From NCBI RefSeq assembly GCF_026210795.1, contig NC_089434.1, forward strand, positions 4,526,001 through 4,590,000: DNA of 64,000 bases, in the 5' to 3' direction. Each line of letters starts with the position of its first letter. Position 1 is the first letter of the stretch. The notes below the pieces were generated by a model. That model was not told the DNA's origin. It made no database searches and was given only the letters and a program-made list of their open reading frames with translations. Below are positions 70 to 58,010 of the stretch, piece by piece. The position numbers were made by a program, and so were the translations under genes. The DNA is from Rhizophagus irregularis. Taxonomy: Eukaryota; Glomeromycota; Glomeromycetes; Glomerales; Glomeraceae.

Positions 70-515
70 ATCGAAGTCAGACTTTACTCATATTGATCTA
101 ATGATAAATTTATTCCAAAAAAAAATAAAAAAATACAAGTAAAATTAAAAAAAAAAATCATTTATCGTCATGAGAAAAAAAAGATGAAGAAAATCGGAGA
201 GGAAAGAAAACAGAAAATTTAATTAAAAGAAAATTTAATGTAGGTGAGCGGAACGCGCCGCAAAAATATAGTGCCTTTAAAATGCACGCAGAAGCCTTTT
301 CGTATTCCTCGTGATATTTCGAATCCATAAGACTACAGTATTGTAAAAGGCAAAACCCCAAAGTGTGTTGAAAGAATTTCTGAATATTCTAACAAAAGAA
401 AAAGAAGCCATTGATCTTTTAGTAAATAATTTTTTATCAAATTACCATGAAAGACGACATTTCAAAAGAAAAAGAAGTCATTGATAGTAAATAATTTTTT
501 ATCACAAATTACCTT
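70..515. repeat. Dispersed repeat, copy 1, with internal duplication
   Basis: Two blocks of this stretch recur at 50565-50905 in the same orientation: one around the run GACTTTACTCATAT near 80, and one at 373-515. Inside the second block a unit of about 50 bp is present twice (about 394-448 and 465-515). It contains GAAAAAGAAGTCATTGAT followed by AGTAAATAATTTTTTATCA. A third partial copy lies at 1206-1256. No protein family is recognised. A short reading frame on the minus strand (158-361) has no visible support as a gene. Confidence 0.6.
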
Positions 516-544
516 GAAGGATCATAAGATTTTTATAGGCGCGA

Positions 545-790
545 GTTCCGCCCGCCAACATTAGATCTTTTTTTAATTGTGCCTTCCGGTTTCTTTCTTC
601 TCCGATTTCCTTCGTCTTCCTTCTCCCGATTACTACGCGGTGAATGCGATGCCTCGTTCATTCAAGGACTAACATTTGATTCTTTGCCGGATGATGCATT
701 TATTACAATAAAGCAATCTAAAACGATTCATAATATCGCATTGTTCGTTTAATTTAATTATGATTTAAATAATCGTTTTTTTCCAAGTAT
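545..790 (+). pseudogene. Short coding-like remnant, unknown family
   Basis: One frame stays open for about 80 codons and has a higher GC content than its surroundings. It includes the peptide LRGECDASFIQGLTFDSLPD and continues into FITIKQSKTIHNIALF. There is no clear start codon or terminator and I recognise no family. The composition contrast with flanking AT-rich DNA suggests an exon remnant, but this is an inference. Confidence 0.25.
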
Positions 791-1208
791 AGGTTCCGAA
801 GTAATAAATATGATGATGTTCCAATTATTCGACCAACAATTAATGACAACATCGGTAATAAGCTTAGCAATTGGTACGATGTTTACGTGATCTTGAATTT
901 CACGAAATAAGGCATGAAACATGTGCATTACACTCTTGTTCCTATCAGTAATGTCACAGCTTTATTAAAATTGTTATTGCGTCTCGACCAAGTTCAGAAA
1001 AGGTAATTGAATGATCCTTTTCCAAAGAGATATTATAGTATTCATCACTAACATTATTCCCATTCCCATTTCGAATAGACAAGTTTCGTAATTTACTCTC
1101 AAAGGTTGACATAATAACTTTCGATTCAGTTTCATTGGTTAGTCTGTTGTCACAAAACTCTTTGATTACGATAGATTTTGTACATTCGATTAATTTACGA
1201 CATTTCAA
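790..1208 (-). pseudogene. Decayed coding remnant, unknown family
   Basis: On the minus strand an 84-codon frame (954-1208) reads STFESKLRNLSIRNGNGNN and YYNISLEKDHSITFSELGRD. It appears to continue, after a frame change near 955, with LIGTRV and FMPYFVKFKI down to about 790. The residue use looks protein-like and polar. No domain is recognised. It starts inside a copy of the dispersed repeat that also occurs at 465-515, so it may be part of that repeat. Confidence 0.25.
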
Positions 1209-1464
1209 AAGAAAAGGAAGTCATTGATGGTAAATAATTTTTTATCATAAATTACCTTAGGAGTATACAATTTAATGACGCATTTGTAGCAACAGATTCT
1301 GTAAAGTGATAAAAAGAATTATCTTTGGTATATCAACAGAAATACATGATTGCTGTTACATTTAGATGCATTCTAGAGGGACGACCAAGACCTCTATTTA
1401 TATACAAAATTGCAACGGAGTACATGCATTGTGGCTCAGCAAAAATCTTTCGATGATTAGCGTA

Positions 1465-1630
1465 TGGTGATTTACTGAATTAGGACCGTGTTTCATGTTT
1501 TCGTGTTTTGTTGTGAAGAATTTTAGATTGTTTTGTTGTGAACGATTTACTGAATTAGGATCGTGTTTCGTATTAAGTGAATCAAAAAATTCTTCGCAAC
1601 AAAACACGATCCTAATTCAGTAAATCACCA
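1465..1630. mobile_element. Small inverted-repeat element with TA target duplication
   Basis: The left end reads TGGTGATTTACTGAATTAGG and the right end is its reverse complement, ending in CTAATTCAGTAAATCACCA. The arms extend about 45 bp inward with few mismatches. TA flanks both sides (1463-1464 and 1631-1632), the signature of Tc1/mariner-type insertion. A third copy of the GATTTACTGAATTAGGA block lies inside, near 1547, so the element has an internal partial duplication. There is no room for a transposase, so it is non-autonomous. Confidence 0.75.
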
Positions 1631-1632
1631 TA

Positions 1633-3170
1633 AATACTTTGTAACACATGTAATAACAAATTGCGCGACGTGAGGCGTATGCAACTTTTTTAATTAAAAA
1701 AAACGTAGTACTAAACGTAAAAAATAATATTAATAAAAAAATTCAATCATAAATTAATAATTATGATCTGGATAGAACAGGATAGAACCGTTATCCGGAT
1801 ATCGTAATTGTTGCGCCACTACTATAATGGTGCAATCATCCGGATATCCGAGAAAATAAAATTATCCGATTGAAAATTTCCAGCCTTTTTTTTTTATTTC
1901 TTGTTGATATTCACGCATTGACATTATCCATATGGTCGGCTTTTTATTTTTCTCAGAAGCAAAAAAGCCTCTAATAAGGTAAATTCAAGAATTCTTATTG
2001 TGAACCAATTTTTCTCCCCAATTTTACTTCGCAATCTCTTTGTATTACAGTATAGATTAAAGAATAAAGTAAATAATTGAGAAATCTAGACCTAATCAAA
2101 CCAGTTTCAGCCATAAATCAATAAATAAACTGGTTGAGAACAATCAAAGCCATAAGGGGATGCTGTGTAATAAGCGACGCGTCCCGTAATTGATTCTTAT
2201 GAGTTGATTTTTATGATTTTTATGAGTTGATTCTTCTAAGTTGAACCTGAGTCGAAATAGAATATTCACGGGATGAACCAATGAAAAAAATGGAACAATT
2301 TTTTTTGAAAGACTGATGATATACAGTAAATATTTACTAAAAATAGATAAAAAATTTCTTATCACGCTATCAAAATTAAACTTAAAAATTTTATGCCTTT
2401 GGGTTATAACTAATTATCCAAGATTTTACACAAATAAAAAAATAGACAAATAATCATGTAATCATCATCAATTAAATTCTTTATATGTTTATTCATTGTT
2501 ACTGAATTCAGTTTTTTGTACAATAATTGACAATAAATCGTACAACGACAAATGAACGGTCGATTAACCGATTAACTACGATTTATTTTATTTAACTAAT
2601 AATATTATTTTACAAAGAAGAATTTTTGATGGCATAAAGTATTGAATTTTATAATATACGAATAATACGATCAATATAAGGAAATTTTGGCACGATTTAT
2701 TAAAAGTAAATTGACCGATATTAATCAATAATTTCTTATTTATAAAGTAAACGTATAATATTAAATAATTTAGATTAGAATCGTGTAATTATATGGGAGG
2801 AATGTGTGTGTGCAAGTGTTGTTTGAGATTCATTTTTAAATAATTTTTAATTTGAAGTATTTTTAATGGAGTTTTACTACGGGTCTATTTATAATGTAGC
2901 CAAATCGGTGCCTATACATGTTTAGAAGTTTAATACTAAACCTTGAGAGGAAAAACAAATAAACCGATGTATATTTCTGTGATTTGACGAGTTTAAATTA
3001 AGCTTTTTATAAATTCCTGTTTATAGTGATATATATAAAAATAACCATACCTGGAAACAATTCCTTATACTACTGCGATTTTTTTTTTCTCGTTTAATTT
3101 AAATTATATAATAAGTTTAAAATAAGATTCCATAAAATAGAATGAAATATAAAAAAAAAACTTTTCTATT
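1633..3170. other. AT-rich spacer
   Basis: No gene is visible. At 1790-1852 two copies of ATCCGGATATC-like sequence face each other around a short spacer, a small palindromic patch that may be a transposon end. The remainder is AT-rich with short homopolymers. Confidence 0.5.
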
Positions 3171-3179
3171 ATCAAAACA

Positions 3180-3901
3180 TTGGATGGGTCACTTGTATAC
3201 CTGATGGCTGATTATACTGCATTCATACAAGTTATTATACAATCTCAATTTGTTTTCTTGGACTTGAAAAATTACTTTATGGTGATTATCGCCAGCAGTG
3301 TATTTCAATTTTTAACCGTCATTACGCTGAATTTGCTGACCCAATATATTTATTATGCTTTTTTTTACATCCGTATTATACTGGTAAGTTTTGATCATAA
3401 AGAAAAAATATATATATATATTTTAGACACGCATCTTATCTGTAATTTTTATAATAACAGTAATTAAGAATACAATAAGTTTTTTTTTTAAAAAAAAAAC
3501 AAAGTATATTATAACACAATTTGTATTTAATAATGAATTACATAATTATATTATTTCGAATTATGTATTTTCTAATGATTATAGTAATAGATAAAATAGT
3601 AACGTAATATGAATTATTTCATATGATTTATTATTTTAGAAATTTGCAGGGCACGAGTACTTTTTTAAGAGATTTATTAGCAGATGAAATTTGGGAAAAA
3701 AAAGCTGAACGTAAAGAATTATTAATGAAACAATATCGTAAACGAGAAAAACCTTTTGATATCAAAATAGGTGATACTGAAACTCCATATACTTGGTGGT
3801 TTCAATTGAAGATAACTTTCCTAAAGAATGAAAATTACCTAGTAGTTCAATTAGCACTTTTAAAAACTCTTTTCCATCACACCTCATGCAGCTGGATGTG
3901 A
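3180..3901 (+). CDS. Possible two-exon membrane protein fragment, unknown family
   Basis: The first exon-like block (about 3180-3383) encodes hydrophobic segments such as FMVIIASSVFQFLTVITLNL and ends at a good donor, CTG|GTAAGT. A second block reads, in phase if the acceptor TTTGCAG|GGC at 3649 is used, GTSTFLRDLLADEIWEKKAE followed by a lysine-rich stretch and GDTETPYTWWFQ. That phase match across a 266-bp intron is the main reason to call a gene. The product would have one or two membrane segments and a charged tail. I recognise no family, the true start is uncertain and the 3' end is unresolved, so it may be a gene remnant. Confidence 0.35.
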
Positions 3902-3904
3902 GCG

Positions 3905-6560
3905 AGTATTATCAAGTCTTGGTTGTGGAAGGATTGAATTGGGCCTTTAAATATAATATAGTATACATTATACAGTATACTACATTTATTTCTCCCTGAT
4001 GAATCATTTGTCCTAAATTACTGATTCAAATTATTATTTAGCAAATTTTGTGATGAATTATGAAAGAAATTTCTGAATTGAAAAAAAGATCACATAAATA
4101 AGATCCGAAAAGAAATTTTAAAACAACATACCTATGTTGATTGTTAAAGTGAAATTTATGGCCAAGCGAAAAAGAAAACCAATAACATCTTTAACACTCC
4201 TTATACCTTTGTGACCTGCACATATTAAATATACGAAGGTCATCGAGGTGAATAAAAAAAAAAATTTCCAAAAAATCACGGTGAGATGTTTTGATTGTAT
4301 ACCCAATCTGTATATCGCGTTAATCTAATGTGCGAATGGTATCAATGATCAGCAAAAAAAAAATCTAACAGCTAATGTGAGTTATCATTTAAGATTTTCA
4401 ATGAGAATTTTCGTTCGTTGACCCAACAACTAACTCAATTGGCAATTCATGAGCACACCCAATTAATCATAATTTTACAAGATCAAATCATTCTTAATAC
4501 AAATTTAACTTGACAGTTTAATATTCTCTCAACTTCTTATGATGTACAGTATAAATCTTTCCAGGAGGTGATCGGTTTGGTGGAGTATAACTAACTAACT
4601 CTTGGACGAGATGGAAATGATACAAATTTTATTTAAAATTCAGTCTTCAACGTCTCGAAAATTTTGGAAAGCGCTTGATGGTGCTTGATTCATCGCGAGA
4701 GTTCTGGCGGTTAGATAATGAAATAACTTCATACCGTTACAAATATCACCTTTCAGCTCATTAATTTCCCTATAAAAATTTTTTAGAAAATTGAAAAATC
4801 ACTGGCTCACGGATTTCTTTAATTATGAGAACGTTTCACGTTGTATTTTGATTCTCATTTCAATCAATTTTGAAACGTATCATTAAATATTACAGTGATA
4901 TTATTCTTTTTCCTAGCTTACTGATAGCATGAAAGAGAGCATGCGTGTGCTCTGTCATTAACCATTCGACACGAACATGAGAACCTTGAGGGACAGAATA
5001 CCCAGGAGGATAGGTGGCTGAAGTTTAATTTACTGCATAAAGATTGAGGCACCCGAGAAGAGTTTGAAGACCAAAAAATCATATATTTATACTTCTAGAT
5101 TTGTCAATTCACTTTTTTTTATCACTTGGATCGTTAAATTTTTAATAACAGCAATAAATACAACTGAAGGATGTTACTTTATCATGAGCAAAAACGGAAC
5201 TTTATTAAATAAATTTTACATTTATTGAGTTGTATTATCGGAACGACAAAAAAAGGGATTAACTACCACTATAACGATAAAGCTAAACTTAAAAAAAAAA
5301 AGGAAAATTTGTAAAGTAAAAAGAGTTGTAATCATCCAACAAAGTGATCCAATAAAATTATAATTGATATACATCTTTAATCTATTCATCGTACGGGATT
5401 TATAAATTTGTTATAATCTTTCTATTTATTCTTGACGTGTTTCTTTCTTGTGTTAGTTTTGTTGCTTTCTTCATGATGGAGAAACAAGAATTATTGATGT
5501 CATCCATCAAGTATTGCTGATTACAGTAATACAATTTATTATTTCATTTAATAGTTCACATGATTTTTCTTAAATGTTGTCGTTGTTCTATTTACAATGT
5601 CAAAATAAGCATGACTTATTAAACTGATCACAATATGGTTCCACCTTTTGCATGTTAAACGTAGAAGAATTCCTACATAATAATAACTGATATATAAAAT
5701 GATAGACTATGCCAAAATAATCAGGTATAAATTATTATTTATCAAGTTTCGGAATATAAAGTGTTATCGCCAATCGCCAATCGATCAAGAAAAATTTATG
5801 GTTATTGATAAATTTTTTTTTTCACCTCTGAATATAAAGAGAATATAATATATATTAATAAAAATATTTTAAATATTTCTAATCAATACTCATACTTTTA
5901 ATACTTACGCCCACTCTACTAAGGTAAAGGTCGTCGATAGGAGAGTATTGTGAACTTCTGATAAAATTGAGAAGATGCGGTCAGTCTTTATCAATAATAC
6001 TGTGAAAATCCTATCTATGCAAAATTCTTAGAAGTCTTACATTCTCAGAAAAAAATCCATACTTTTGAACAGCAAGTATGAAGTGGAAAGGGCCATTATC
6101 CGTCGTGGCTTTAAGTAAAATTTTATCCATTTCAGTAAGTGGTGTTTGCTATTTTGCTGTAAGAACGAAGATCGTGGCCAATTTCAAACTTCAAAGTATT
6201 CTGAAATAAGACTTTTATTGTTAACATTCTAGTTTGAACGAAATTGAAATTTAATTGGAATTAATGATTTCGTTTGTCTATTATTTATAAATTCGGAAAA
6301 AAATATCGAAAATAAAATACAATGAATGATAAATAAGTAAATTTAATACTATCTAGTATTAAAAAAAAAAATTTGAAAAAATGCTCTATTAATTTAAATA
6401 AATTTCAATACCGAATATAATAATAATTGGCGACGAGTATAATTTTGTGAGTTGTAACGAAAGAAATGAAAGGACTTAAATTTAAATTTTTAAATTAAGA
6501 AATTCAACTTTAGCTCATAGTTTAAATATAAATCTAATGATCTAGTGATCGGTTGATCGA
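3905..6560. other. AT-rich spacer with one exon-like patch
   Basis: Mostly featureless AT-rich DNA. On the minus strand around 6035-6130 there is an exon-like patch reading MDKILLKATTDNGPFHFILA, ending before a GTAAGA donor. No neighbouring exon could be joined to it. Nothing else is supported. Confidence 0.4.
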
Positions 6561-51416: not shown

Positions 51417-52650
51417 GGAGGTCGTCTAAAGTGGGGGCAAATCATGTGACTTCAAAAAAAATTGTTTTCATAAAATAAAACTTTTACCATATATTCAACC
51501 ATTCTAAACATGCATTTTAAATGCATTTTTGCCTGCTCTGCAAGTTTACTTAAAGTACAGAGTAGCATAGCAGACATCACTATTTTATCACTGATCATTT
51601 GTCAATCATTTGCTGATCATTTATTCAATTATCACATAATATAATACCATTGCTAAAAAAATTTACATAATAAATATATGCTCAAATTTCACAAATAACT
51701 TAAATTTAGTTTTAATTTATTGTATATTAAATTTCATTAGAAACATTTTAACTTTTATTATTATTTGGCATATATTTATTCATTTTACAAAATTATTCAC
51801 TAAATATGTTACTAATAAAAAACCTGCATTATGAATCAGATCACTGCATTATTTTTTTTATAAATTCTACATAATATAAAGAATATTTGTGCAAAGTTTT
51901 GAGTTTTGCCCATGCATATTCATCTCTACCCATCAAATTTTATCTGATGATCAGCAAAAAATTATGAATTATCACATATGAATAATGTGTTATAAAATAT
52001 TAAAAAATTATGCCAATAATTATATAATTAAAATTATATAATAATTTAATGCTTAGCTTATATTTCCATAATTTTTTTACCACATTATTTTGAAAATATT
52101 TGTGGCTTTTACAATAAATTTTAAAATTGGAATTATGTAATCGGCAAATGATCAGCAAGGTGATATAAGCATGTCCGCCATGCTGTACAGAATAGGAATA
52201 TAGGGTTTTGAATACTGTTTTTGATTTATTTAACTTTTCAATTTTGCTATCCATTTTTGGATATGATCAACAAAGTTTCATTCATTCATATATAAAGTCA
52301 AAAATAATATGCAAAATCCACTTTTTTTCCTTAAGTAAACTTACAAAGCAGATAAAAATATACTTAGGAAAGTGACACATATTACGTCATATTCATTTTA
52401 CTATGAATTTTACCCCCTTTCCTTCTTGTCAGATTTAATAACCAATTAAATTTAATTATACAATTTATATAAATAGAATAAGTGTAATGTCAGATTTTAA
52501 TTATCTATAACCAATTTAATAATTATGTCATATGTGTCACTTCTCTTATATTATGATTTTAAAGTTTCTATTAATCTTTTTTTATAAAAAATTAATCTAA
52601 TTAAAATTACACCAAATCACGTGATTTGCTTCCACTTTAGATGACATCTA
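51417..52650. mobile_element. Non-autonomous element of about 1.2 kb with long inverted arms
   Basis: The left end GTCGTCTAAAGTGGGGGCAA then ATCATGTGAC matches, inverted, the right end GTCATCTAAAGTGGAAGCAA then ATCACGTGAT. Inside, CTGCTCTGCAAGTTTACTTA (51535) matches the inverse of 52325-52350, so the imperfect arms extend at least 130 bp. No transposase is visible; the interior is AT-rich. The target duplication could not be fixed. The element ends about 40 bp before the Harbinger transposon. A CACGTGA site lies in the right arm (52618-52624); the left arm has CATGTGA at the corresponding place. Confidence 0.65.
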
Positions 52651-52901
52651 ATTTAGCATTACCCCAAAAAAAAATACTAATCATGTGACTATAGGCCAGT
52701 TCATAATTGTTCGATCGGCATCTTTGATCAGGTTACACTAAAATTGTGACAAATAAAATTCACCTCAAAAACGATTAACTAGCTGATTTTTTGACCTACC
52801 AAAAACGTAGATCTCTATGATCGAATTGATAAAATAAGGGTAAAGTACGCGTAAAAATGTATACTAGACGTGTTTTTTCTTTCTTATTTCCTCTTTACTA
52901 A

Positions 52902-54526
52902 TGGAATTTCCGAAAGATCCTTTAAACAACCCTCAAGTAAATATTTCATATAAAAATAACAAGTTACTAAGGCCTATTAAACCTAGAAATTTATACCCTT
53001 CACCTTCTACTGGAATTTTTGAATAAAGTAATGTGGATTTATACTAAAATCCCTTACTAACAAGACAAAGTTATGTTGCTCCTAGTTTTTATATACAAAA
53101 TGGAAGCAGTTTTGGCCAAAGCTTTTCTGGGCCTAACTATTTTGAAAGAGAATCTGCAGAGTTACAAAGATATCAAAAAGAAAATGTTGTTGATGATAAA
53201 GTTTCTGATGTAGAAATTAATTATCAACAAAAAAAAGAAAAGATTAATGACGAAAAAGAATTAACAGTGAGTAAAAGTACTTTATTAATTTTTTAGTTGT
53301 AATTTATTTTATTTTAATTAAAATTAATTTAGGATGTTAACTACAAAAAAAAATCTAATAATAATCGTAAATCTGGTAATGAGGGCGAGTCTAATAACAA
53401 TTGGCAAGTCTATGAAGTTAATATTTTACTTCAATACATTGCAGATAATTTTGATGAGTATACAAAAGGTAATAAAACTAAATTGTTTAATGAAATGTCT
53501 GTAAAGGTATTAAAAAATAAAGAGCCTAATACTATTAAAAGCAAGTTAGCAATGATGATCAAATACTATGGTGAGGTTAAAGCTCATAACGAAAAATCTG
53601 GTGTAAAGAGAAAAAACTGGGATTGGTATGAGAAAATGGATGCTATTTTTGGTACTCGTGAAAATATAGCACCTTCTTTTATAGTAAATAGATCTACTGA
53701 TATTGATAGCAAAGAATCTTCAGATATAGTACCTAAAACACCTAAAAGATAAAAAAAAAATAATGTAGATACTATTGCTATGGCTATTTCTACAATGAGT
53801 GAAACTAGAAAAAGAGTATGGGAAAAGAAGCTTGAGTTAGAAAAAGAAAGGATTGAAAAAAATCATACTATTGACCCTATAAAAAGTATTTATATTTAAA
53901 ATATAATTAAAAACTTTTTAAAATATATTTAAAATATACTTAAAATATATTTAATTTAAAAATTGCGAAATACTTATAATATACTTAAAATATATTTAAA
54001 ATTATCTTAAAATATATTTCTAATATATTTAATTTTTGGCTTCCCAAATACTTAAAATATACTTAAATTATATTTAAATTAAAATTTAAGTATATTATAG
54101 ATATATTTTTTATATACTTAAAATATACTTATAATATATTTCATAATATATTTTAAGTATATTTTAAGTATGTAAAAAATATACTTATAATAATCTTATA
54201 ATATACTTAAATTTTAATTTAAATATAATTTAAATATATTTTAAGTGTATGGGCAAAAATTAAATATATTAAACATATATTTTAAGATAATTTTAAGTAT
54301 ATTTTAGATATATTAAAAATATATTATAAGTATTTTGCAATTTTTAAATTAAGTATATTTTAAATATATTTTAAGTATATTTTAAGTATAATACTTTTTA
54401 TAGGGTGAAATGGGTAAATTAGAAGTAGAAAAACAGAAATGGGAATTTGAAAGAGAGAAAATGAAAATGGAGCATGAACTAAAATTGAAAGAGATGGAAT
54501 TTAAACAATCAAACAATACGAACTAA
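52902..54526 (+). pseudogene. Myb/SANT-like accessory protein of the Harbinger transposon, interrupted
   Basis: The frame starts MEFPKDPLNNPQVNISYKNN. A GT-AG intron lies at 53267-53332. The core reads WQVYEVNILLQYIADNFDEY, FNEMSVKVLKNKEPNTIKSK and KRKNWDWYEKMDAIFGT, a trihelix/Myb-SANT-like DNA-binding fold; in PIF/Harbinger systems this partner binds the transposon ends and brings the transposase into the nucleus. The C-terminus is a coiled coil: RVWEKKLELEKERIEKNH, then after the insertion GKLEVEKQKWEFEREK and MEHELKLKEMEFKQSN. In-frame stops occur at 53024, 53045 and 53750. A 531-bp element at 53875-54405 splits the coiled coil; the coding frame on both sides is continuous if the element and one 3-bp duplication are ignored. 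Confidence 0.8.
53875..54405. mobile_element. 531-bp near-palindromic AT-rich element nested in the Myb/SANT gene
   Basis: Ends CCCTATAAAAAGTATT and the inverse, flanked by TGA on both sides (53872-53874 and 54406-54408). Nearly the whole length is one inverted repeat centred near 54140, composed of TTAAAATATACTTAAAATAT-like units, with matching landmarks such as GGCTTCCCAAATACTT on the left and AAGTGTATGGGC on the right. It would form a hairpin of about 250 bp per arm. It has no coding capacity. The 3-bp duplication fits a PIF/Harbinger-type non-autonomous element but the ends do not match the host transposon. Confidence 0.8.
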
Positions 54527-54675
54527 TGAAATAATATTCTCTTATAGGATAATCTTAGTATATTTTTTTTTTCTAATAGCTTTAATATAATTTTCTTTTT
54601 TGTAAATAGTGATAAGTTTATGTAATAATTTTACAATAATAAAGGTTTTATTTTGTAGTGTTCAATATTTGTATA

Positions 54676-55103
54676 CAGTCAGACCTCTATATATCAATAT
54701 CCTATGTACCGATAATTGCCTGTACCGATAAATTTTCTATGTCCCGTTTCACAATTAATAAAAAAATCTCATTGTACCGATATTATATATGGTTTCATGA
54801 TGTAACATATACCAATACTTTTCTTGGCCCCTTTATAATTAATACATAGTAAGATGTACTGATACTTTAGGTTACACTGGTATTAATTCGGGTCAACACT
54901 ATGAATTTAGCCGGAGTTAACATAAAGGTTTCATCCAAATCACATGATATTTTAATATATTAGCTATCCAGAGTTTACATAATGCTGGCAAGAATTGGAT
55001 TTTGGCCCACATTATGATTCACTGATGACGGTTATGTAACGATAATTTGATATACCGATATATTTTCCTAAAACAACAGTATCGGTACATAGAGGTCCGA
55101 CTG
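54676..55103. mobile_element. 428-bp CAGTC-type element nested between the two Harbinger genes
   Basis: Left CAGTCAGACCTCTATATATC, right inverse CAGTCGGACCTCTATGTACC, flanked by TA at 54674-54675 and 55104-55105. Sub-terminal units of ATGTACCGATA type repeat inside both arms. TA duplication and ends agree with pogo/Tigger-like elements; other copies are at 24320, 37240 and 40905. It lies in the non-coding gap and does not itself break a gene. Confidence 0.8.
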
Positions 55104-55156
55104 TATACTGTTTGCATAATATTCATAATAACATTTACAGATGACATTGAATTTTA

Positions 55157-56583
55157 TTAATGATTAATAATTAGATTCATTAATTGCTCTCTTTTTCTTT
55201 CTCCTTCTCTTTTCATTACTATTTCATTTTGATTTATATCTTTATCATTATCACTATCATCATCACCATCTTCATCATCATCATTTTCATATAATTCTTC
55301 TACATTATCATTATTTAGTTCTAAAAAATTATGTAAGATGATTGCACATTCAGTAATTTTTACAACAGTAGAAATATCTCTAACATTTAATTCTTTTAAA
55401 GCAATAAATCTGTTCTTTAATCTTCCAATGCATTTTCAACTACTACTCTATGTAAAGAATGAATTACATTAAATTAAATTTGTGAAGGATTTTGAGAATT
55501 TACAAAAGGTTTAATTAAAAAAGTAGATATAGGATATGCCGAGTTTCCAAGTAAATATTCTTCTCCTTTAATAATTTTAGAAACATTTCGATAAAAGTAT
55601 GAATTTTTATAAATCTTAGCATTATGAACTGAGCCAGGCCATCCAATCTCATAATCTATAAACATATCTCTGTAATCTACAATTCCTTGCAATTGTATAG
55701 AATATCTTTTTTTTCTGTTCCAATATGTTTCAGGTTGCTTTAATGGCGCATTTGCTAATACAATGTGACTACCATCTATTGCACCTATAATATCTTCCAT
55801 TTCACCAATATTTTTAAATCCTTCATGTATATTCTGCTTGGCTTCACCTGTTGGCCATTTAACCAAAGTTTTTTTTAAAAAAAAAATCGCAATTATTACT
55901 CTTTTACAGTATAAATAAACGGTTTCTTCTGCAATTCCAAATCTTGAACATAATTCAAATATATCTTCTTTAGAACTAATTCTTCTCAAAAAAATTGCAA
56001 GTTGTAATTCAATAGGAACTTGTAAATGATTACTATTATTTTGAAAAATTGGATGAGTAATTAATAGGGAAACAAGCTTTTGAAAATTTATAGAGTTCAT
56101 TCTAATGATTTTTTTAAATCTACAGTTTTCATATTTTGGTAAAATATAGTGTTTTGATCCAGATAAAATCTTAAATATTTTAAATGAGATTATTGCCGAA
56201 AAAAGATTGTAAATCTCAGTTCTGAATAGACTATAATTTCGACCAGAATATTTAATATATTATGAATCAAAAAATTGGTAATTCTGATAGTTCCATCCTG
56301 AATTAACCGAAACGGATATCGGATAAAAACCGGATAAAACCGCTTCGGATCCAAACACTAGTAAAATATAATTGTACCAATCTTTTGATTTTGCTACATG
56401 ATAAGATCTTTGCTCTAAATATCTTATTCCAAGTAATGAGATTAGTCCAAGCATTACCAAATCATCCTCTTCTTCTTCACTTGAATCACCTTCTTCCTCA
56501 AATAAATCTTCATTTTCCATATCTTGACAAGCTGTAATAACATAAAAAGATAATAATTCCCTTATTTTCTTGTGTTTAGACAT
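55157..56583 (-). pseudogene. HARBI1-type DDE transposase of the Harbinger transposon, inactivated
   Basis: From ATG at 56583: an acidic N-terminus (EEEGDSSEEEEDD), RYLEQRSYHVAKSKDWYNYI, an inserted 214-bp element, PKYENCRFKKIIRMNSINF, a helix-turn-helix-like part ELQLAIFLRRISSKEDIFEL, then the RNase H-like DDE domain: IGAIDGSH (first Asp kept), GWPGSVHNAKIYKNS and EEYLLGNSAYP. In HARBI1 proteins the second and third positions are normally Asp (VHD, GDS); both are Asn here. A stop at 55474 and a 1-bp loss near 55425 follow, after which VVVENAL (conserved Glu) and an acidic tail can still be read to a stop at 55157. It once cut and pasted the element; now it has at least five independent lesions. 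Confidence 0.9.
56147..56360. mobile_element. 214-bp hAT-type non-autonomous element nested in the transposase gene
   Basis: Ends TAGTGTTTTGATCCAG and inverse TAGTGTTTGGATCCGAAG. The 8-bp sequence GTAAAATA is present on both sides (56139-56146 and 56361-56368), the diagnostic duplication length of hAT transposons. Ignoring the element and one duplication, the transposase frame reads straight through as DWYNYILPKYENCRF. The interior has ATCGGATAAAAACCGGATAA and no gene. Confidence 0.85.
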
Positions 56584-56764
56584 TTTAACTGCTGTAAAAT
56601 TTTAATTATACTTTATAAGAATAAAAGTAATGACTACGCGATAACTTTTGTATTCATAGATTAATCAATATATGCGATCAAGCATTTCAATTATGAACAT
56701 TGATTGTGAAATTTAGTGTAACCCGATCAAAAATGCTGATCGAACAATTATGAACTGGCCTTAT

Positions 56765-58010
56765 GTAAAAAATCATCACATTCGTCACACCCCTCAGCAG
56801 TGTTGTACATTTTTGATATTTGCAACTTTTTTTGGTTGTTCTGAACATGTCTGTGCTTTGTCTGTACTCTTCTGTAACTATTTATTTATGCATAATTAGA
56901 TGCTAAACATTTTTGCTAAGTATTGAACAAGATTATCATAGAAAAATTTTGAGGGTTATCATTTCTTTTTTGTGTAACATGTCCTGAACATTGTCCCATG
57001 ACAATACTGCCTTCAGTGTTTTCATTTATCTGAGAGACAGTTTTTTTCGAATTGGTAAAAACTTATTCGTCACACATTATTTGTTACTGCACTATTCACG
57101 TGACAGTGCATAATTCTACATAATGCTAGCCACCAGTAGAACCCTACTTACTTACAGTATAAGATAGGTCACCCTCAGGCCTAAGGTAAAAATCATATAT
57201 AAAATTCTTTGCAGATCCTACTATAAAAGGAAATTTTATGTTACATTGTTATGATTTTTTTCCTTTTTAGCTAATTAACCAATAGAATTTAAGAAAAAGT
57301 AAGGTAAAAACTATTAGTAAAGGGCCAATTTTTTACGGTGATCTTTATTATAAATAAGCGGAGTTCTCCACCAGTATTTTTTTGGGTAACGTTAGGTAGT
57401 TTTTAGATGACCTCTACTTCTGACACCATATTTAATTATTAATCCATTATTCTCCTGATTTCAGAAATATTTAGTAACTATTATAGTATTTCAATTTAAA
57501 TAGAATAGAATATTCTTATATTACTATTATAATGATAAATTTATTTAGTTGGAATCTATAAGCTATCAATTAATATTTACAAAGGAATTGGTCATTCTAT
57601 AGGATATCTTCTGGCTTCCTTTGGTTTTCAAAGGATATATACTGTAAAGACAAATCTTAAAAAGCTAGATTATAATTTTTTTATTAATAAAAATTAATTT
57701 TAAATTTTTTAAAAAAAAACTAATCATATCGACATTTGCATTTTAATGTTTAAGATAAAAAGCATAGGTATACAGTACTTATTATTTTACGCCAATGCGA
57801 TCGCTAACTACAACTTTCTAAACAATTTTTTTGATGGAATAGAATAAGTGCTTGTAAAAATGCTACCTATAAGAATTATTATGAAATGCCAGTTCTACAT
57901 TTGATTACATAACTCGATTTATGCAGTATTAATTGTGAACTCATATTTATGTAGGTTGTTTCTATTGACTTTTTTTATACTGTATTGATTATTTCATTTG
58001 CCAGGATTTT
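56765..58010. other. Spacer
   Basis: No gene or repeat is clear. It ends in the promoter region of the next gene. Confidence 0.4.

Follow-up and report, generated by a model that had tools for sequence, protein, structure and literature searches.

In the Rhizophagus irregularis genome (146.7 Mb in 32 contigs), the 64,000-nucleotide stretch C6:4526001-4590000, hereafter the window, contains a 4069-bp DNA transposon of the PHIS (PIF/Harbinger) superfamily at positions 52693-56761, delimited by its terminal inverted repeats (TIRs) and by relatives with the same ends, which were fetched from the same genome. The left TIR (53 nt, 52693-52745, forward strand) is 92% complementary to the right one (53 nt, 56709-56761, reverse strand), and the element is flanked by the target-site duplication (TSD) TAT at 52690-52692 and 56762-56764. 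A preliminary description of this DNA had given the same duplication, which stands, and terminal repeats of 50 bp, which are refined here to 53 nt. The host element carries two genes. An accessory gene on the forward strand (52901-54526) comprises exon 1 at about 52901-53266, an intron at 53267-53332 and exon 2 from 53333; its start, splice sites and exon 1 stop were read by eye, and the frame of exon 2 was computed. A DDE transposase gene lies on the reverse strand (55157-56583). Both were identified through an open homologue, the host copy L001, which encodes a 402-aa transposase with a DDE_Tnp_4 domain (PF13359, E 5e-28), placing the family within PHIS, and an accessory protein whose exon 2 holds a Myb/SANT-like domain (PF13837, E 8e-9, 36.2 bits against a cut-off of 27). 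The accessory gene and transposase proposed from the sequence alone are thus borne out.

Three further elements are nested within this host. A near-palindromic hairpin of 531 bp (53875-54405, ends CCCTATAAAAAGTATT) splits the accessory gene and is flanked by TGA at 53872-53874 and 54406-54408. A 428-bp element (54676-55103, ends CAGTCAGACC...GGTCCGACTG) sits between the two genes and is flanked by TA at 54674-54675 and 55104-55105. The third, of 214 bp (56147-56360, ends TAGTGTTTTGATCC...GGATCCAAACACTA), splits the transposase gene and is flanked by the 8-bp duplication GTAAAATA at 56139-56146 and 56361-56368. At each joint within a gene the same host protein resumes on the far side, as the preliminary description had claimed; the host genes are nonetheless broken elsewhere, with one nonsense codon in each exon of the accessory gene, independent of the insert, and one nonsense codon and one frameshift in the transposase gene. 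A feature overlooked earlier is the absence from the window of at least 43 bp at 55148/55149, a segment present in all five of the aligned copies described below. Judged from its inserts, nonsense codons and frameshift, the window copy is dead.

To locate relatives, the left 208 bases of the host were used as query; this returned eight other places with at least 145 bases at 80% identity or more, and also many places sharing only the host end or a short element. Relatives with the same ends measure 2928-3350 bp, and two close ones without these inserts measure 2928-2929 bp. Five copies with both ends (C23, C13, C26, C30 and C20) were aligned to the window; three other fetched loci (L005, L007 and L008) were partial matches and were left out of the empty-site count. 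Relative to the window, all five aligned copies lack exactly 534, 430 and 222 bp at the three sites, that is 531 + 3 (TGA), 428 + 2 (TA) and 214 + 8 (GTAAAATA), in each case the element plus one duplication, so that every one of the three sites is empty in 5/5 copies. The 214-bp site is empty also in the C1, C25 and C22 copies, where the transposase match is uninterrupted. The comparison of copies with and without inserts, suggested beforehand as a check, yielded boundaries that agree almost to the base, with coordinates refined, and the claim of three nested elements with three duplication lengths is upheld by these empty sites and exact duplications.

We assign a probability of roughly 0.93 to the reading that a PHIS host with a DDE transposase and a Myb/SANT partner, now decayed, took up three unrelated non-autonomous elements. 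The host would have encoded both a DDE transposase and a Myb/SANT DNA-binding partner, presumably acting jointly on the 53-bp ends; PIF/Harbinger elements are said to need both proteins (PMC2836001). It would then have decayed, mostly through C-to-T changes enriched at CpG, and would have received a hairpin-type miniature inverted-repeat transposable element (MITE) with a 3-bp TSD in its accessory gene, a pogo-related MITE with a TA duplication between its genes and a hAT-like MITE with an 8-bp TSD in its transposase gene. That a Harbinger-superfamily host holds inserts of three other families is supported by the empty sites together with the copies of each family elsewhere in the genome.

Each genome search with an insert scored 40 candidates, which makes the numbers of places lower bounds; for every family 20 copies were fetched from those listed, and their ends and flanks were compared. 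As the preliminary description anticipated, each insert proved to have relatives that form a repeat family sharing its ends and TSD length. The hairpin family occupies at least 39 other places at 92-99% identity, and an exact 3-bp TSD was found in 19 of 21 end pairs (18 of 20 fetched, plus the window). The duplicated sequences are varied (TAA, CAA, TGT, ACG, ATT, GTG and others), so TWA is not preferred. The genome contains 144 occurrences of the 16-nt hairpin end (69 + 75) and none of the reversed control, and the folding energy of the element is -158, compared with -53.5 +/- 4.1 in 100 shuffles (z = -25).

The superfamily to which the hairpin belongs can be proposed only tentatively. Elements of the CACTA/EnSpm type typically bear a CACTA terminal motif, whereas the hairpin ends read CCCTA. 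Assignment to CMC (CACTA/EnSpm-type) or to another superfamily with 3-bp TSDs, its autonomous copy being rare or absent here, is an option to which we give somewhat less than an even chance: the 3-bp duplications without target preference (19/21) are consistent with it, CMC duplications are reported as 2-4 bp (PMC4482050), and CMC and Plavaka elements are known in R. irregularis (PMC11075540). Against it, neither a CMC transposase nor any other convincing coding partner was found in 20 unpaired hairpin ends read 3 kb inward and three long pairs, with 100 of the 144 ends listed.

For the 428-bp element, at least 39 other places, whole or partial, were found at 79-96% identity, with an exact TA in 20 of 21 end pairs (19 of 20 fetched, plus the window). 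Locus L101 holds a 2254-bp pogo element with TA on each side, encoding HTH_Tnp_Tc5, CENP-B_N and DDE_1 domains. The left 131 bp of the 428-bp element match it at 78% and the right 73 bp at 81%; alignment of the left 150 bp scored 154, compared with a maximum of 51 in shuffled sequences (n = 200). Because its ends are homologous to those of the L101 element, the 428-bp insert is a pogo-related MITE. It resembles pogo-type (Tc1/mariner) MITEs in its TA duplication and in having ends homologous to a DDE_1/HTH_Tnp_Tc5 element of the same genome, and shows no qualitative difference from them, being without a coding interior and with ends about 20% diverged from L101.

The 214-bp family comprises at least 15 places at 97-99% identity and at least 24 at 77-78%. 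An exact 8-bp TSD was present in all 20 paired copies (19 of 19 fetched members with recognisable ends, plus the window); the remaining fetched member (L067) had no recognisable ends and was not counted. A sister subfamily, about 78% identical, accounts for five of the 19 fetched members with recognisable ends. The element is like hAT MITEs in its 8-bp duplication and its short TAGTG...CACTA ends, which we take to be of hAT kind. It differs in that inspection by eye of the longest open reading frames (ORFs) at eight loci, read inward from ends with two mismatches, showed no hAT coding partner; seven of these eight loci represent a different family of short MITEs, about 310-320 bp long. The earlier suggestion that transposases elsewhere in the genome drive the inserts therefore holds well for the 428-bp element, given the L101 pogo element with homologous ends and TA duplications; for the hairpin and the hAT-like element, movers encoded elsewhere are presumed.

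Nesting of this kind is not confined to the window. Three of the five aligned host copies hold four other inserts: C30 has one of 252 bp, C26 two of 233 and 150 bp, and C20 one of 419 bp. All four have their own repeated targets as read by eye and lie at positions other than those of the window inserts; the 419-bp insert of C20 (L006) is flanked by TA on each side, like a mariner MITE. Nested mini-elements are thus common in the host family, and the window is a clean but ordinary instance. Just outside the host, window positions 57160-57307 are an 87% relative of the 233-bp C26 insert.

The decay of the window copy was followed by comparison with the near-identical copies C23 and C13, which individually carry 2 and 9 differences. 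Jointly against these two, the window copy differs at 65 of 2882 sites, and 55 of the 65 differences are C>T or G>A. Polarised with C26, C30 and C20, 52 of the 65 differences are assigned to the window copy, including 44 of the 55 that are C>T or G>A. The C>T/G>A changes affect 15 of 73 CpG cytosines and 40 of 738 others (Fisher p 3.4e-5). The same CpG bias, unpolarised, is seen when C26 and C30 (L003 and L004) are compared with C23/C13, and it is weaker in C20 (L006), which shows many reverse differences; overall, C-to-T differences from C23/C13 are three- to four-fold commoner at CpG in the window, L003, L004 and L006. This CpG-enriched pattern is as methylcytosine deamination would give.

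The relative ages of host and inserts are less clearly marked. The preliminary description had the Harbinger element arriving first and the others later, and we infer likewise that the inserts postdate the arrival of the host here. The finding that no aligned copy carries the inserts agrees with this order; the C-to-T loads do not tell the ages apart. Per C:G site, C:G-to-T:A loads are 55/811 in the host and 3/50, 13/150 and 2/65 in the inserts, the latter counted against the majority letters of each family. Several observations weigh against the proposed history. These loads show no significant difference between host and inserts (Fisher p 1.0, 0.39 and 0.43), so they give no independent sign that the inserts are younger, nor do they separate the order of the inserts or their lag after the arrival of the host. 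Twelve of the 65 differences fall on the C23/C13 side, and one is undecided. Absence of the inserts elsewhere is not strict proof that they landed after the host arrived, and the search for an unoccupied host site was negative, no listed place matching the left flank in full. That flank (window 52393-52692) consists of two other repeat families with many copies each, at about 52393-52594 and 52545-52658, matching positions 1-202 and 153-266 of the query.

The similar loads in inserts and host would also fit the possibility that at least one insert was already inside the host when it moved here and was carried along as a passenger, and empty sites elsewhere are compatible with insertion into a donor copy. 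We consider this unlikely: none of the five aligned copies has any of the inserts, the 214-bp site is empty in three more, and a host whose transposase gene was already interrupted would have needed another copy's help to move.

Three loci in which hairpin ends lie near coding genes (L073, L083 and L084) were considered as autonomous partners and rejected. L073, with Mutator-like element (MULE) genes between hairpin ends (FAR1 and MULE domains by Pfam), contains a MULE at about 140-5835 with its own inverted repeats of about 1 kb (96%) and a 9-bp TTTAAAATA duplication, read by eye, inside a hairpin copy; the repeats and duplication mark it as a separate insertion into that copy. In L084, where a MULE-like gene was recognised by eye, the gene end is common to six other copies, none of which has the terminal 16 nt of the hairpin; the 50 bp beyond the MULE end resemble the hairpin arm weakly in one of the six (4 of 300 shuffles were as good), and in four of the six (B, E, F and G) the BLAST match extends into the arm. 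For L083, eight other copies of the coding region at 95-96% begin at query positions 93-113, beyond most of the arm. Unpaired hairpin ends adjoin MULE-like genes, as read by eye, in L084 and L086. A fourth candidate, the 9-kb locus L074 (101-9070), has outer ends of the hairpin family with TAT on each side; in eight of its 14 listed ORFs that were scanned, the interior revealed a long interspersed nuclear element (LINE; endonuclease and reverse transcriptase), which lies within fragments of another hairpin, and a further outer part of about 2.3 kb is present besides the LINE and the hairpin fragments. Mutator and MULE duplications are 8-11 bp long, those of the hairpin 3 bp. That a Mutator-like transposon with an atypical duplication of 3 bp has the hairpin as its MITE, as the joining of hairpin ends to MULE-type genes in L073 (Pfam) and L084 (by eye only) might suggest, is highly improbable, being refuted for L073 by the MULE's own repeats and 9-bp duplication and very unlikely for L084, where the six copies of the gene end point to another separate insertion.

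Within PHIS, groups are distinguished by their targets: TWA in PIF/Harbinger, ANT in Pangu, and CWG and C|TNA|G in Nuwa (Han et al. 2015, PMC4482050). Among 29 host-family loci surveyed, including the window, 15 have both ends, and 13 of these show an exact 3-bp TSD (ATT 4, AAT 4, TAT 2, ACT 2, AGT 1). ANT accounts for 11 of the 13 (P = 5.6e-9 at the window ANT frequency of 0.122). TWA accounts for none; random targets would give 0/13 with a chance of 0.34, whereas a TWA-targeting group should show nearly all TWA, so the family does not have the TWA target. Running counter to an ANT assignment, two of the 13 TSDs, the TAT of the window among them, lie outside ANT, and in two of the 15 both-ended copies the duplications are one base apart. 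The host transposase gave no match to a Pfam helix-turn-helix (HTH) family at E 1, a level at which a diverged HTH could escape. It matched an IS5-family model weakly (E 0.004, well short of the cut-off of that model), and nothing meaningful emerged among solved structures (best E 0.33).

The host family is like Pangu (Harbinger2) in its ANT duplication, AG-starting ends, two ORFs and length of about 3 kb, and in a DDE transposase without another kind of Pfam domain (PMC4482050). It differs in the Myb/SANT domain of its partner protein; that no known motif was detected in the second ORF of Pangu is, in the account given there, an observation and not a criterion (PMC4482050). Pangu TIRs are described as 11-40 bp with an AG or GG start, compared with 49-53 bp and an AG start here, and the present family comes from a glomeromycete, a group outside the Pangu species listed in that account (PMC4482050). 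With PIF/Harbinger proper it shares DDE_Tnp_4, a Myb/SANT partner, and TIRs shorter than 60 bp with an A start (PMC4482050); it differs by its ANT-type duplication and by the lack of a detected HTH domain in the transposase. In target, then, the family is Pangu-like and not canonical Harbinger (TWA), and its Myb/SANT partner is of the kind found in PIF/Harbinger and Nuwa. A literature search returned no paper joining Rhizophagus with Pangu. Short elements of 208-279 bp with the host terminal repeat (L009-L012, L121 and L123-L126) are MITEs of the Harbinger-type family, and at G000:C1:2874388-2891866 the two ends of a host copy are separated by about 17.5 kb, one of them accompanied by a transposase match at 99%.

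Considering these likenesses, we put forward, at odds a little below even, that the host represents a PHIS lineage in which an ANT target of the Pangu/IS5 type occurs together with a Myb/SANT partner like that of PIF/Harbinger and Nuwa, among fungi for which Pangu was not listed. The same proposal includes a hairpin family (3-bp TSD, 144 exact ends) that relies on a transposase awaiting identification.

The nested locus is a clear textbook case and no new kind of element, and the understanding of transposition is unchanged by it. In R. irregularis, about two thirds of transposable elements were unclassified before curation (PMC11075540). What is gained is a set of verified boundaries and empty sites, three usable MITE family definitions, one of them now tied to a pogo relative, and evidence for ANT over TWA targets in this Harbinger-type family. 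Methylation of transposons would accord with the CpG bias in the decay of older copies and, if the proposed lineage is real, the Myb partner and target choice would evolve independently.

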